From Cellulomonas sp. PhB150 (GTDB taxonomy: Bacteria; Actinomycetota; Actinomycetes; Actinomycetales; Cellulomonadaceae), in contig NZ_RKHX01000001.1 of assembly GCF_003755175.1 (NCBI RefSeq), positions 558,001 to 622,000 of the forward strand: 64,000 bases of DNA. Direction: 5' to 3'. The notes beneath the pieces are model-generated. The model saw only the letters and a list, made by a program, of their open reading frames with translations. It made no database searches and was not told the origin of the DNA. Positions 36,071-64,000 of the stretch are shown here, in pieces. Made by a program: the position numbers and the translations under genes. Positions within the stretch are counted from its first letter, which is position 1. The number at the start of each line of letters is the position of its first letter.

Positions 36071-36094
36071 AGGGTTGGTTGCAGGGTTGGTTGC
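36071..36094. repeat. 12-bp tandem repeat, two units
   Basis: AGGGTTGGTTGC occurs twice head to tail at 36071-36082 and 36083-36094. The second unit runs into the left arm of the palindromic element at 36089. Confidence 0.75.
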
Positions 36095-36142
36095 AGGACA
36101 CGCCGTGCGCGGGGGCGGTTGCGCGTGGCGTGTCGTTCAACC
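36089..36142. repeat. Palindromic element copy A
   Basis: GGTTGCAGGACACGCC (36089-36104) is an inverted repeat of GGCGTGTCGTTCAACC (36127-36142), matching at 14 of 16 positions around a 22-nt GC-rich loop. The core GACACGC/GCGTGTC and outer GGTTG/CAACC are shared with copies at 61502 and 62658. Confidence 0.75.
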
Positions 36143-36166
36143 ATCCCTGCAACCACCCCGGTGAGT

Positions 36167-36221
36167 GCGCGTGGGTGTGCGCCACGCCGCGCGCTGTGCC
36201 GCGTGTCGCACACCCACGCGC
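36167..36221. repeat. Inverted repeat with perfect 15-bp arms
   Basis: GCGCGTGGGTGTGCG (36167-36181) and CGCACACCCACGCGC (36207-36221) are perfect complements with a 25-nt spacer. It lies just after palindrome copy A and is not related to it in sequence. Confidence 0.72.
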
Positions 36222-59969: not shown

Positions 59970-61307
59970 TCACAGGACCGGCAGGAACCGCTTCAGCTCG
60001 AACGGCGTGACCTGCGAGCGGTACTCCTCCCACTCCCGGCGCTTGTTGCGCAGGAAGAAGTCGAAGACGTGCTCGCCGAGCGTCTCGGCGACCAGCTCGG
60101 AGCGCTCCATGACGGAGATCGCGGCGTCCAGCGACTGCGGCAGCGGCTCGATGCCGAGCGCGCGGCGCTCGGCATCCGTGAGTTCCCACACGTCGTCCTC
60201 GGCACCGTCGGGGAGCTCGTAGCCCTCCTCGATGCCCTTGAGGCCGGCCGCGAGCATCACCGCGAACGCGAGGTACGGGTTCGTCGCGGAGTCGACCGCG
60301 CGGTACTCGATCCGGCTCGAGTTGCCCTTGCCGGGCTTGTACATCGGCACGCGGACGAGCGCGGAGCGGTTGTTGTGGCCCCAGCAGATGTAGCTCGGCG
60401 CCTCGGCGCCGCCCCACAGCCGCTTGTAGGAGTTCACGAACTGGTTGGTGACGGCGGTGATCTCCGCGGCGTGCACGAGCAGGCCCGCGATGAACGAGCG
60501 CGCGACCTTCGACAGCTCCAGCGGCGCGCCGGGCTCGTGGAACGCGTTGCGGTCACCCTCGAACAGCGACAGGTGCGTGTGCATGCCGGAGCCGGGCTGG
60601 TCGGACAGCGGCTTCGGCATGAAGCTCGCGAAGACGCCCTGCTCGAGGGCGACCTCCTTGACCACGGTGCGGAAGGTCATGATGTTGTCGGCCGTGGTCA
60701 GCGCGTCTGCGTAGCGCAGGTCGATCTCGTTCTGGCCCGGACCGGCCTCGTGGTGGGAGAACTCCACCGAGATCCCCATCGACTCGAGCATGGTGATCGC
60801 GGCGCGCCGGAAGTCGTGCGCGGTGCCGCGCGGCACGTGGTCGAAGTAGCCGCCCTGGTCCACGGGGACCAGGGGCACGTTCGGGTCGGCCGGGGCGTCG
60901 AACAGGTAGAACTCGACCTCGGGGTGCGTGTAGAACGTGAACCCCTTGTCGCTCGCGCGGCTCAGCGCACGCTTGAGCACGTTGCGGGAGTCCGCCAGGC
61001 TCGGCTCGCCGTCGGGCGTGAGCAGGTCGCAGAACATGCGCGCCGTGCCGTGCCGCTCGCCGCGCCAGGGCAGCACCTGGAACGTGGTGGGGTCCGGCTT
61101 GGCGATCATGTCCGCCTCGTAGACCCGGGTCAGGCCCTCGATCGAGCTGCCGTCGAACCCGATCCCCTCGGCGAACGCGGCCTCGAGCTCGGCGGGCGCG
61201 ACCGCCACCGACTTGAGGATCCCGAGCACGTCGGTGAACCAGAGACGGATGAAGCGGATGTCCCGCTCCTCGACCGTGCGGAGCACGAACTCCTGCTGCC
61301 TGTCCAT
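59970..61307 (-). CDS. glnA2: Glutamine synthetase GlnA2-type (non-adenylylated type I)
   Basis: A 445-residue type I glutamine synthetase of the alpha-like actinobacterial GlnA2 class. Motifs are DVLGILKSVAVAPAELEAAF, IGFDGSSIEGL, HPEVEFYLFD, GSGMHTHLSLFEG and NRSALVRVPMYKPGKGNSSR. The segment that carries the adenylylation tyrosine in GlnA reads DDVWELTDAE here, with Trp in place of Tyr, so GlnE should not modify it. ATG 61307 (MDRQQEFVLRTVEERDIRF) matches the known GlnA2 start, with AGGA upstream. It precedes glnE. Confidence 0.94.
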   Translation of the reverse strand: MDRQQEFVLRTVEERDIRFIRLWFTDVLGILKSVAVAPAELEAAFAEGIGFDGSSIEGLTRVYEADMIAKPDPTTFQVLPWRGERHGTARMFCDLLTPDGEPSLADSRNVLKRALSRASDKGFTFYTHPEVEFYLFDAPADPNVPLVPVDQGGYFDHVPRGTAHDFRRAAITMLESMGISVEFSHHEAGPGQNEIDLRYADALTTADNIMTFRTVVKEVALEQGVFASFMPKPLSDQPGSGMHTHLSLFEGDRNAFHEPGAPLELSKVARSFIAGLLVHAAEITAVTNQFVNSYKRLWGGAEAPSYICWGHNNRSALVRVPMYKPGKGNSSRIEYRAVDSATNPYLAFAVMLAAGLKGIEEGYELPDGAEDDVWELTDAERRALGIEPLPQSLDAAISVMERSELVAETLGEHVFDFFLRNKRREWEEYRSQVTPFELKRFLPVL

Positions 61308-61690
61308 GACGTACATCCTGCCTGACATCCGCCCTGTCCAGAGCAGTTGTCCGCCGCGCGTCCACCACGAACCTCCGAGCGCTCTCCGCACAACCGGCGC
61401 TCCGGCTCGGTGCACCCTCCTCTTCTCGCTGGCGCGGCCCTCGCTTGGTACCGCCACCGCCCTCCGCCGGTTGACGCCGCCCTCACGAAGCCCTGCACCC
61501 GTGGTTGCACGACACGCTGCGGAATGCCCGGCGTGTCGTGCAACCAGGCGTTCAGCCAGTGATGCAGCTGTCGGCCGGCAGCCGGCCGCGAGTCGTCGCG
61601 AGGCGTCCACAGGTCGTGCGGGCAGCCGGGTCGTCCACAACCGGCGGCGCTTCACTCCCACGAGGACGTCGGCGGGGACAGCCTCGTGCT
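61308..61690. other. 383-bp gene-free stretch containing a palindromic element
   Basis: The gap between divergent glnA2 and the AbiEi-like gene has no credible gene. It must hold the glnA2 promoter, though no clear -10/-35 pair or GlnR-type box is seen. Palindrome copy B lies at 61502-61546. Confidence 0.7.
61502..61546. repeat. Palindromic element copy B
   Basis: TGGTTGCACGACACGC (61502-61517) and GCGTGTCGTGCAACCA (61531-61546) are perfect 16-bp inverted arms around a 13-nt loop. It lies 145 bp upstream of the AbiEi-like gene and shares its core with copies A and C. Confidence 0.88.
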
Positions 61691-62659
61691 ATGACGCGAC
61701 TTGAGCTTCCGGCGGACGTCCATGCCGCCGCGCAGCGGCAGCGCCAGCTCGTCACACGCACGCAGCTGGTCGACGCCGGGGTGTCCCCGGATGTCCTCCG
61801 CCGACGCCTGGCGACGTCGTGGCGCCTCGTCCTCCCGGGCGTCGTGCTGCTCGGCCGGGGCGCGCTCGACGCCGCCCAGAAGCTCGTCGCCGCGCAGCTC
61901 CACGTAGGCGATGACGCCGTGATCACCGGCGGCGCGGCGGCCCACTGGCACGGCCTTCGGTACGCGGAGCCCGACCAGTACGTCGACGTGCTGGTCGCCT
62001 GGAGCAGGGCACAGCGCGTGACTGGCTTCGTCCGCACCCGCCGAACGGATCGACCGGTGCGGCCGATCCACGGTGGCGGCATCGTGCTCGTGGCACCGGT
62101 CGTCAGAGCGGTGGCCGATGCGTGCCGTGCGCGAAGAGACGAGCGCTACGCGACCGCGCTGGTCGTCGAGGCGGTCCAGCGCCGGAAGGCGAAGCTGGAC
62201 GCCTTCGTCGACGAGCTCAACGCCGGACCGACACGTGGCTCCGCCACGCTCCGCCGAGCAGTGGCGGCCGCCTCGACGGGAGCCTGGTCCGCACCTGAGC
62301 ACGACCTGATCGAGCTGATCACGACTAGCTCGACGCTTCCTGAGCCATGGCCCAACCCGGTGCTCTGGACGACGGACGGAACGCTGCTGCCCTCCCCGGA
62401 CCTGTGGCTCGACGATGTCGGCATAGCGATCCAGGTCCACTCGCACATGCACCATGCCGCCGGGGCCGACTGGGACAGGACCGTGCGCGCCGACAGCGCG
62501 CTCGCCGAGGCAGGTGTGCTCCGCATCTCGTTGACGCCGGCGGAGATCGCGCGGCAACCGCTGCGCACCCTGCGCCGCATCGAGGCCCTCCACGCCTCAC
62601 GCTCGCCGGCAAACCGCCCGCCGATCCACATGGAGCCCCGCGTGCCGCACTTGCGCTGA
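61691..62659 (+). CDS. AbiEi/DUF559-like protein (solitary)
   Basis: A 322-residue protein. The N-terminus (HAAAQRQRQLVTRTQLVDAGVSPDVLRRRLATSWRLVLPGVVLL) looks like the AbiEi-type winged-helix domain seen in many single actinobacterial genes. The C-terminus resembles a Vsr/DUF559-like restriction-endonuclease fold: PSPDLWLDDVGIAIQVHSHMHH, then DWDRTVRADSALAEAGVLRISLTP. The usual E-x-D of the nuclease core reads Q-V-H here, so catalysis is doubtful. No AbiEii toxin gene is adjacent. ATG 61691 is chosen by homology to such proteins; the open frame starts earlier inside palindrome B. Flanked by palindromes B and C. Confidence 0.75.
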   Translation: MTRLELPADVHAAAQRQRQLVTRTQLVDAGVSPDVLRRRLATSWRLVLPGVVLLGRGALDAAQKLVAAQLHVGDDAVITGGAAAHWHGLRYAEPDQYVDVLVAWSRAQRVTGFVRTRRTDRPVRPIHGGGIVLVAPVVRAVADACRARRDERYATALVVEAVQRRKAKLDAFVDELNAGPTRGSATLRRAVAAASTGAWSAPEHDLIELITTSSTLPEPWPNPVLWTTDGTLLPSPDLWLDDVGIAIQVHSHMHHAAGADWDRTVRADSALAEAGVLRISLTPAEIARQPLRTLRRIEALHASRSPANRPPIHMEPRVPHLR

Positions 62660-62716
62660 GTCCGTGGTTGCACGACACGCCGGGTCTTCCGCGGCGTGTC
62701 GTGCAATCACGGACTC
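62658..62716. repeat. Palindromic element copy C
   Basis: Arms at 62658-62682 and 62692-62716 are 25-bp complements with one G-T pair and a 9-nt loop. The central GGTTGCACGACACGCC matches copies A and B. It begins inside the stop codon of the AbiEi-like gene and may also terminate its transcription. Confidence 0.88.
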
Positions 62717-62854
62717 AACCGGTCGTGCGGAGCGGGGGGCGGGCGGGTCGGGCGCGCGGTGCAGCTGAGGCGCGGCGCGGTTGCGAGCGCGGGGCGGTGG
62801 GCGGCGGTGGGCGGGGTCACAGGGTGGGGGCGCGCTCGGGGGTGGGTGGGTGGA

Positions 62855-62860
62855 TAGGGT
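62855..62860 (+). promoter_or_regulatory. -10 box for leaderless start of nadE
   Basis: TAGGGT is followed by 6 nt and the ATG at 62867. Confidence 0.55.
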
Positions 62861-62866
62861 CGGGGG

Positions 62867-64000
62867 ATGGTTCGGCCGCGGATTGCGCTCGCTCAGATCG
62901 ACACGTGCGTCGGGGACGTCGAGGCGAATGCCACCGCCGTGCGGGCGTGGGCACGCAAGGCCGCGGACGCCGGCGCCGACCTCGTGGTGTTCCCCGAGAT
63001 GACGATCACCGGCTACCCCATCGAGGACCTCGCCCTGCGCGCGAGCTTCCGCCGCGGTGCCGAGGCGGCGCTGCAGGCCACGGCGAAGGCCCTGGCCGAC
63101 GAGGGGCTCGGGGAGCTCGCGGTGCTCGTCGGGACGGTCGGCGAGCGCGAGACCGCCGCCGGGACCCGCCCGACGAACCAGGCCGTGCTGATCCGGCACG
63201 GGGTCGTCGAGGCCCGGTACAACAAGCACCACCTGCCCAACTACGGCGTGTTCGACGAGTTCCGCATCTTCGCCGCGGGCGAGGACCCGCTCGTCATCGA
63301 CGTGGCCGGCGCGAGGTTCGGCGTCGTGATCTGCGAGGACATCTGGCAGGACGGCGGGCCGGTGACGCAGGTGCGTGACGTGGACGCGCTCGTCGTGCTC
63401 AACGGCTCCCCGTTCGAGGAGGGCAAGGGACACGTCCGGACCGACCTCGCCAAGCGTCGGGCCCAGCAGGTCGACGCGCCGGTCGTCTACGTCAACCTCG
63501 TCGGCGGCCAGGACGACCTGGTGTTCGACGGCGGCTCGTTCGTCGCGGGGACGGACGGCACGCTGCTCGCCACGGCACCGCAGTTCGTCGAGCACCTGCT
63601 CGTCTGGGAGCTGGGTGAGCAGGGACCGCAGGTCCCGCCGCTGGACCCTGACGAGGAGATCTACCGCGCGATCGTCACCGGCCTGGCCGGGTACGTGCGC
63701 AAGAACGGCTTCCGGTCGGTGACCCTGGGCCTCAGCGGTGGGATCGACTCCGCGCTGACCGCCGCGATCGCCGCGGACGCGATCGGCGGCGCGAACGTCG
63801 TCGGCGTCTCGATGCCCTCGCAGCACTCGTCGGGACACAGCAAGGACGACGCCGAGGACCTGGCCAAGCGGATCGGCGCCGACTACCGCGTGCAGGCGAT
63901 CAAGCCGATGGTCGACGCGTTCGAGCAGCAGATGGAGATCCACGGCGTCACGGCCGAGAACCTGCAGGCGCGCGTCCGCGGCGTGATCCTCATGGCGATC
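62867..64000 (+). CDS. nadE: Glutamine-dependent NAD+ synthase, 3' part missing
   Basis: Final step of NAD synthesis, amidating nicotinate adenine dinucleotide with ammonia drawn from glutamine. The first 378 codons are present. The N-terminal nitrilase-type glutaminase shows the catalytic triad E44 (VVFPEMTITGYP), K120 (ARYNKHHLPNYGVFDEFR) and C156 (VVICEDIWQDGGP). The synthetase domain begins with the ATP loop LGLSGGIDSALT (S290-S295) and VSMPSQHSSGHSKDDA. It continues past the right edge. ATG follows TAGGGT by 6 nt. The substrate glutamine links it to the neighbouring glutamine synthetases. Confidence 0.95.
   Translation, partial: MVRPRIALAQIDTCVGDVEANATAVRAWARKAADAGADLVVFPEMTITGYPIEDLALRASFRRGAEAALQATAKALADEGLGELAVLVGTVGERETAAGTRPTNQAVLIRHGVVEARYNKHHLPNYGVFDEFRIFAAGEDPLVIDVAGARFGVVICEDIWQDGGPVTQVRDVDALVVLNGSPFEEGKGHVRTDLAKRRAQQVDAPVVYVNLVGGQDDLVFDGGSFVAGTDGTLLATAPQFVEHLLVWELGEQGPQVPPLDPDEEIYRAIVTGLAGYVRKNGFRSVTLGLSGGIDSALTAAIAADAIGGANVVGVSMPSQHSSGHSKDDAEDLAKRIGADYRVQAIKPMVDAFEQQMEIHGVTAENLQARVRGVILMAI

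Follow-up and report, generated by a model that had tools for sequence, protein, structure and literature searches.

The window, our term for the whole 64,000-nucleotide stretch of Cellulomonas sp. PhB150 DNA that was analysed, contains a gene enclosed by two palindromes. The gene (61691..62659, + strand) runs from an ATG at 61691 to a TGA ending at 62659 and encodes 322 amino acids. Upstream lies palindrome B (61502..61546; no strand is assigned to any of the palindromes), a proposed dimer site of the encoded protein, 45 bp long with 19 of 22 positions paired. Its downstream copy, palindrome C (62657..62717), is 61 bp long with 26 of 30 positions paired, and its first base is the T of the TGA stop codon (62657-62659). 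The two align in register with 74% identity over 76 nt and have the core arm TGGTTGCACGACACGC in common. The best inverted repeat in 200 dinucleotide shuffles of the region 61308-62866 has 14 paired arm positions, and the best in five shuffles of the whole window has 16; the same scan gives 17 for B and 26 for C. Among matched palindrome pairs 0.6-2.6 kb apart, B and C are the only one in the 64 kb.

On either side of the cassette are the genes of glutamine synthetase (glnA, - strand), about 190 bp from palindrome B, and NAD synthetase (nadE, + strand). With these two as neighbours, the toxin gene AbiEii is not adjacent. A scan of 61250-62900 for intrinsic terminators (a G+C-rich hairpin with a T-run) and sigma-70 signals found nothing, and an Rfam search with the palindromes gave matches only far below the gathering scores; the c-di-AMP riboswitch found by Rfam in locus L083 is elsewhere, apart from the palindromes. 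A solo element of the B/C family lies at 36088..36143, between convergent ORFs; it is imperfect (20 of 28 positions paired) and has an arm span of 52 bp. Directly beside it, at 36167..36221, is a solo palindrome with GTGGGTGTGCGMCACG-like arms, of the type that brackets the orthologous gene of genome G034.

The protein is modelled as an AbiEi-antitoxin fold, covering the N-terminal ~195 residues, joined to the catalytic-domain fold of Vsr and the EDxHD homing endonucleases. PADLOC returned AbiEi matches (best E 6e-7), and Pfam an AbiEi_1 match under its cut-off. The acid at position 248 is one that we take to be catalytic, judging by the Vsr/EDxHD fold family. In the 66 aligned proteins of the window's clade this position is Q in 43, M in 19 and L in 4, so ordinary cleavage cannot drive anything in this clade, and binding may be all that its protein still does. 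The 41 proteins of A4 all have E at the same position and keep the nuclease residues. Values of dN/dS of 0.10-0.34 in five pairs mark purifying selection, which says that the protein is kept, not who benefits from it.

A pattern scan for named relatives of the window protein returned none, and a PDB sequence search with A3 and A1 gave nothing convincing. None of 422 matches in a viral fold library reached E ≤ 0.001; DUF559/Vsr-like phage proteins were among the best of them, all above this value. In sequence records such proteins are named "type IV toxin-antitoxin system AbiEi family antitoxin", "DUF559 domain-containing" or "hypothetical".

Most of what an earlier note had read from these letters stands: the coordinates of palindrome B, the common arms, the AbiEi-like part, the degenerate nuclease-like part (now with the loss of the acid) and the missing AbiEii partner. 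It had also correctly let palindrome C begin in the stop codon; its extent of 62658-62716 is one base short at each end.

Bracketing of the gene family by matched palindromes

We took the best 80 of 363 confirmed relatives of A1 (the named loci), chosen by protein alone, and scored a gene as bracketed when long inverted repeats on both sides had matching arms at a local score of at least 9. Eight loci had too little flank for the unshifted test; among the 72 evaluable genes, 32 are surrounded by a matched pair. All 32 fall within L055-L112 (51 evaluable). In L113-L134, mostly Mycobacterium and Bifidobacterium, none of 21 evaluable genes is bracketed, and 1 of 22 is at a relaxed threshold. When the interval was shifted by -1700, -1400, +1300 or +1600 bp, 0/76, 0/76, 0/74 and 0/74 were bracketed (0/300 in total). 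Palindromes of different loci matched in 153 of 2316 comparisons, close relatives counted in.

The relaxed threshold is passed by 38 of the 80 named loci, including one in Mycobacterium (L131), and by 7 of 14 added genus loci, which were picked partly for having looked bracketed. Pairing is not universal: 40 of the 72 evaluable loci stay below the bracketing threshold, and in the window's clade three of five tested orthologs pass the relaxed one. Several paralogous genes of the family per genome are common.

The cassettes are uniform in layout. From palindrome to palindrome they measure 1.05-1.25 kb in 40 of 45 bracketed loci, and, measured from the stop codon, the downstream copy is centred at -12 to +88 bp in 32 of 33 listed pairs (+197 in the other). 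The span from arm to arm is identical in both copies at 41 of the 45 loci. Within a locus the arms are 89% identical and the spacers 65%, the arms being ahead in 36 of 45. Elements of the window's own family in which both arms were found have spans of 41 bp (8/11) or 52 bp (3/11), a step of 11 bp, or about one helical turn.

Compensatory arm changes occur in the Oerskovia set at pairs 15, 16, 19 and 27-29; the G049 set varies too little to judge them. Paired changes of this kind would be preserved by a two-fold protein-DNA contact and by a hairpin alike, and it is the fixed span with a free spacer that favours the contact. Strand asymmetry of arm mutations gave no clear trend, and the 20 nt on each side of 29 + 33 elements contain no strongly conserved column and no GTAG tag.

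As described in PMC7319586, the AbiEi promoter has paired inverted repeats of 23 bp, separated by 3 bp, to which AbiEi binds, and the pairs of Rv2827c are 13 bp apart; the EDxHD enzyme I-Bth0305I, in the account of PMC3943268, dimerises on a target of nearly 60 bp. By analogy, the size and design of the palindromes are what one would expect from a fusion of the two kinds of protein.

Palindrome sequence goes with the protein. At a protein similarity above 0.6, 25 of 28 locus pairs share arms with a score of at least 12, and protein and arm similarity correlate with a Mantel r of 0.21, reached by 1 of 2000 permutations. Taken alone, arm sharing among similar proteins could reflect shared descent of the flanks.

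Related subfamilies and loci show further arrangements. In another AbiEi/DUF559 subfamily, L244 (G052) and L243 (G053) are bracketed by palindromes of 56-91 bp, those of L244 with internal direct repeats. In a further one (L235, L236, L238, L240, L242 and L245), palindromes whose arms resemble GAGAGNGCRATCCRG are found ~340-490 bp upstream of the match, three in tandem at L235; no matched downstream copy was found in this subfamily. At L009 (G008), positions 1309-1934, four similar palindromes instead of one follow the gene in a row; three have a length of 64 bp, and the array has the look of a local amplification.

Chromosomal place, dispersed copies and turnover

Orthologs of the window gene in G034, G058, G001, G019, G008 and G020 are likewise neighbours of nadE, and wherever the contig reaches far enough glnA is on the opposite side. 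At this place the gene therefore behaves as vertically inherited. A survey of nadE in 60 genus genomes yielded 30 loci including the window's own; three carry the gene and one (L152) has no glnA match, and in the other 26 the glnA-nadE place is empty, with a spacing of 82-277 bp. None of these 26 sites gave a clean junction, their sequences being too diverged to show one. Two gene-less intergenes, L154 (G031) and L156 (G076), contain a ~62-bp imperfect palindrome of other sequence. Across the family, 16 synteny clusters were found within 89 loci. Many close orthologs share one chromosomal place; genes of 60-70% identity occur at different places too.

We searched 81 genus genomes for dispersed copies. 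The window's own arm type has 9, 13 and 3 matches in G000, G034 and G058, three of the seven genomes with an ortholog, and none in the other 78 (reversed control: 1 match). In the remaining four ortholog genomes the palindromes are of other kinds or, at the thresholds used, absent. Matches to the G034 type are confined to G034 (6) and G000 (5), against one in the control, and the G049 type has 132 matches in 6 of the 81 genomes; the three types tested in the genus set are thus dispersed in just 2-6 of 81. The Oerskovia type has 5, 23, 31 and 9 matches (68 in total) in four Oerskovia genomes and none in six others with related genes. G049-type repeats are also present in G005, G023 and G055, yet the closest gene there is only 63, 63 and 53% identical and unbracketed by that type.

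Matches per genome number 3-13 in the clade with the lost acid and 4-46 in genomes with intact-site proteins. As these ranges overlap, we rejected copy number as evidence for a nuclease role.

The two palindrome types examined are mostly at gene 3' ends. From 62 fetched elements of the G049 and Oerskovia types we left out L281, the downstream palindrome of the L072 cassette. With ORFs called by a GC3 rule rather than annotation, 31 of the 61 solo elements are flanked by convergent ORFs and 1 by divergent ones, and 3 fall within a predicted ORF; among 31 Oerskovia elements, 10 contain the stop codon of the neighbouring ORF. Near position 1478 of L166 (G049:C1:308200-311200), a second palindrome arm, which starts with GCCGAGCGGGCA and resembles the G055 family, comes no more than ~100 bp after a G049-type palindrome, and several palindrome families seem to coexist and cluster within one genome. 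The Y1 transposase PF01797 was found in none of 18 palindrome-bearing genomes and in 5 of 14 control genomes.

Cassettes that are orthologous and share a place differ in their palindrome pairs. In 36 of 43 comparisons the two copies of a locus resemble each other more than they do their orthologous counterparts, in 6 less and in 1 equally, so the pairs of sites are replaced in concert. The orthologous 3' site E2 illustrates turnover of a dispersed copy: it holds the G049 type in G049, G065 and G005, variants of it in G030 and G012, and a longer, different sequence in G022; in G062 and G075 no palindrome is visible, and the flanks have diverged. In G055, E2 has a different palindrome, of the family found upstream of that genome's own gene, which has a palindrome on this side only. 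Since GCCGAGCGGGCA-like arms also occur in G049 (L166), this match in trans is not exclusive. No case was seen in which, at base resolution, a palindrome had entered an empty site.

In 3 of the 16 synteny clusters (26 of 113 links) the cassette is inverted at the same place. The clearest case is in Isoptericola: in L078, relative to L085 and L083, the cassette is reversed with both breakpoints at the palindromes; the flanking genes are collinear, and in the flank sequences a distance of 3-25 bp separates their stop codons from the palindromes. A recombination event with the two palindromes as partners explains this inversion; either the protein or the host may have carried it out. When L068 is compared with Oerskovia, the right boundary alone is clear, and in the first cluster no matched pair accompanies the inverted members (L066 and L070).

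These comparisons bear on what the earlier note had proposed for the surroundings of the locus. A compact cassette with palindrome ends is supported by the recurrence of matched pairs, by their even size (40 of 45 at 1.05-1.25 kb) and by the Isoptericola inversion. Other AbiEi-like genes with the same arms, for which it had proposed to search, are not the rule: members of the family are mostly flanked by arms of their own. Clean presence/absence junctions at the palindromes were not found at the own locus, where the empty sites of 26 relatives are too diverged and ~190 bp separate glnA from palindrome B. The comparison of relatives came out mixed: orthologs keep the gene at the same glnA-nadE place, and 26 others lack it. 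Solo copies of the palindromes are also scattered over the genome; matched pairs bracket members of this gene family and never shifted intervals.

A proposed protein-site system

Lone genes of this kind, enclosed by two copies of a long palindrome that recurs elsewhere in the genome, occur in a number of actinobacteria. Because different gene lineages have different palindromes, gene and palindromes together look like an undescribed system for spreading or keeping repeats. Going by sequence patterns, the palindromes most likely serve as ~60-bp sites for a dimer of the encoded protein, the whole being a REPtron-like system whose protein is unrelated. We lean, with some reserve, towards gene and palindromes being a single system in which the protein binds its own sites and acts in trans, and specificity and sites change together. 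A palindrome of ~45-70 bp would be bound by two protein molecules, one on each arm; what counts would be the arms and how far apart they are, and the spacer sequence would count for little. The upstream palindrome may serve autoregulation, as in abiE. The second one, at the stop codon, would make a palindrome-gene-palindrome cassette able to recombine or invert at its ends. In trans, the protein would spread, convert or keep palindrome copies at gene 3' ends, much as TnpA_REP is presumed to do for REPs, and a change of specificity in a lineage's protein would lead to joint replacement of the flanking pair and the dispersed sites. The sequences themselves show the pairing, the lineage-specific palindromes, the fixed spacing, the dispersal, the 3'-end location of two types, the inversion, the purifying selection and the fold match; physical binding, mobility, cutting or nicking, and the part of the protein as driver of dispersal, are what we infer from these patterns. 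The stronger statement, that AbiEi-EDxHD/Vsr proteins form a new class of repeat system, copying or converting their own ~60-bp sites with protein and site evolving in step, we put forward tentatively, at somewhat less than an even chance.

One alternative is binding without any movement. The protein would then be an AbiEi-type DNA-binding regulator or an architecture factor of 3' ends or the chromosome, with an operator upstream and, in the dispersed sites, a regulon that serves the host or insulators. The paired inverted repeats in the AbiEi promoter, as described in PMC7319586, are a precedent, and purifying selection (dN/dS 0.10-0.34 in five pairs), the many cassettes that remain at one place, the lost catalytic acid in the window's clade and the 41/52-bp spans, which differ by about one helical turn, agree with it. 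Yet the dispersed sites lie mostly past stop codons, with 1 of 61 between divergent genes, so they are not ordinary promoter operators; from one related species to the next, corresponding places show turnover of the palindrome sequence, and nuclease residues are kept in 41 of 41 A4 proteins. We consider this account rather unlikely.

A homing-type selfish gene, whose protein cuts solo palindromes so that the cassette is copied into the break, the solos being targets or deletion scars, would make use of the nuclease fold. The EDxHD/Vsr fold with the ~60-bp target precedent given in PMC3943268, the homology that the flanking copies supply, the preference of cassettes and solo sites alike for gene 3' ends and the occurrence of genes of 60-70% identity at different places are in its favour. 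However, occupation of a solo palindrome was never seen, many close orthologs sit at one shared place, and an intact nuclease next to about 30 uncut sites in G049 would need protection or nicking only; we regard homing as unlikely.

That the palindromes are ordinary terminators or REP-like repeats of other machinery, with the gene merely among them, suits their 3'-end location and hairpin-forming sequence but is highly improbable given matched pairs around this gene family and never around shifted intervals, no T-run terminators at 61250-62900, no Y1/RAYT transposase in 18 genomes, palindrome sequence that tracks the gene lineage and a fixed arm span.

If the stronger statement on a new class is true, bacteria would have evolved, in addition to REP/RAYT, a second and independent solution of this type, made out of the DNA-binding domain of an antitoxin and a nuclease of the homing type, with a private palindrome language in each lineage. 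With gene and palindromes as one system, proteins now named AbiEi family, DUF559 or hypothetical would gain DNA partners and a testable function, and long-palindrome families in genomes without a detectable RAYT would be explained. Dozens of natural protein-site pairs would further reveal how the target of a DNA-binding domain shifts.

Comparison with known systems

In the open-access literature, with most subscription papers outside its range, we found no paper that ties AbiEi/DUF559 genes to flanking or dispersed palindromes. The closest parallel is the REPtron. As presented in PMC8266576 and PMC3733652, its gene (TnpA_REP/RAYT) is flanked by its own palindromes with little sign of the gene moving, and REP palindromes are dispersed, intergenic, beside 3' ends and specific to the protein lineage. 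The palindromes described here likewise flank their gene, are dispersed in intergenic 3' regions and are lineage-specific, and mobility of the gene is little seen. In contrast to the REPtron, the protein is unrelated (AbiEi and Vsr/EDxHD folds, no Y1 domain in 18 genomes), several paralogs per genome are common, and the elements are larger (45-70 bp) and fewer, with fixed-length spacers of free sequence and without a conserved GTAG or other tag outside the palindrome.

With the AbiE type IV toxin-antitoxin systems (AbiEi; Rv2827c), the gene shares the AbiEi fold. AbiEi binds two inverted 23-bp repeats with a fixed gap in its promoter, and the palindrome upstream of the gene described here, similar in design, may be bound likewise. 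This gene differs from the AbiE systems in lacking an adjacent AbiEii nucleotidyltransferase toxin and in its added nuclease domain, and its palindromes are also found behind the gene and at other chromosomal places. The catalytic-domain fold is that of the EDxHD homing endonuclease I-Bth0305I and of Vsr; unlike in these, the nuclease half is joined to an AbiEi-type half, the window member has lost a catalytic acid, and the target that we propose lies to either side of the gene and at dispersed sites as well.
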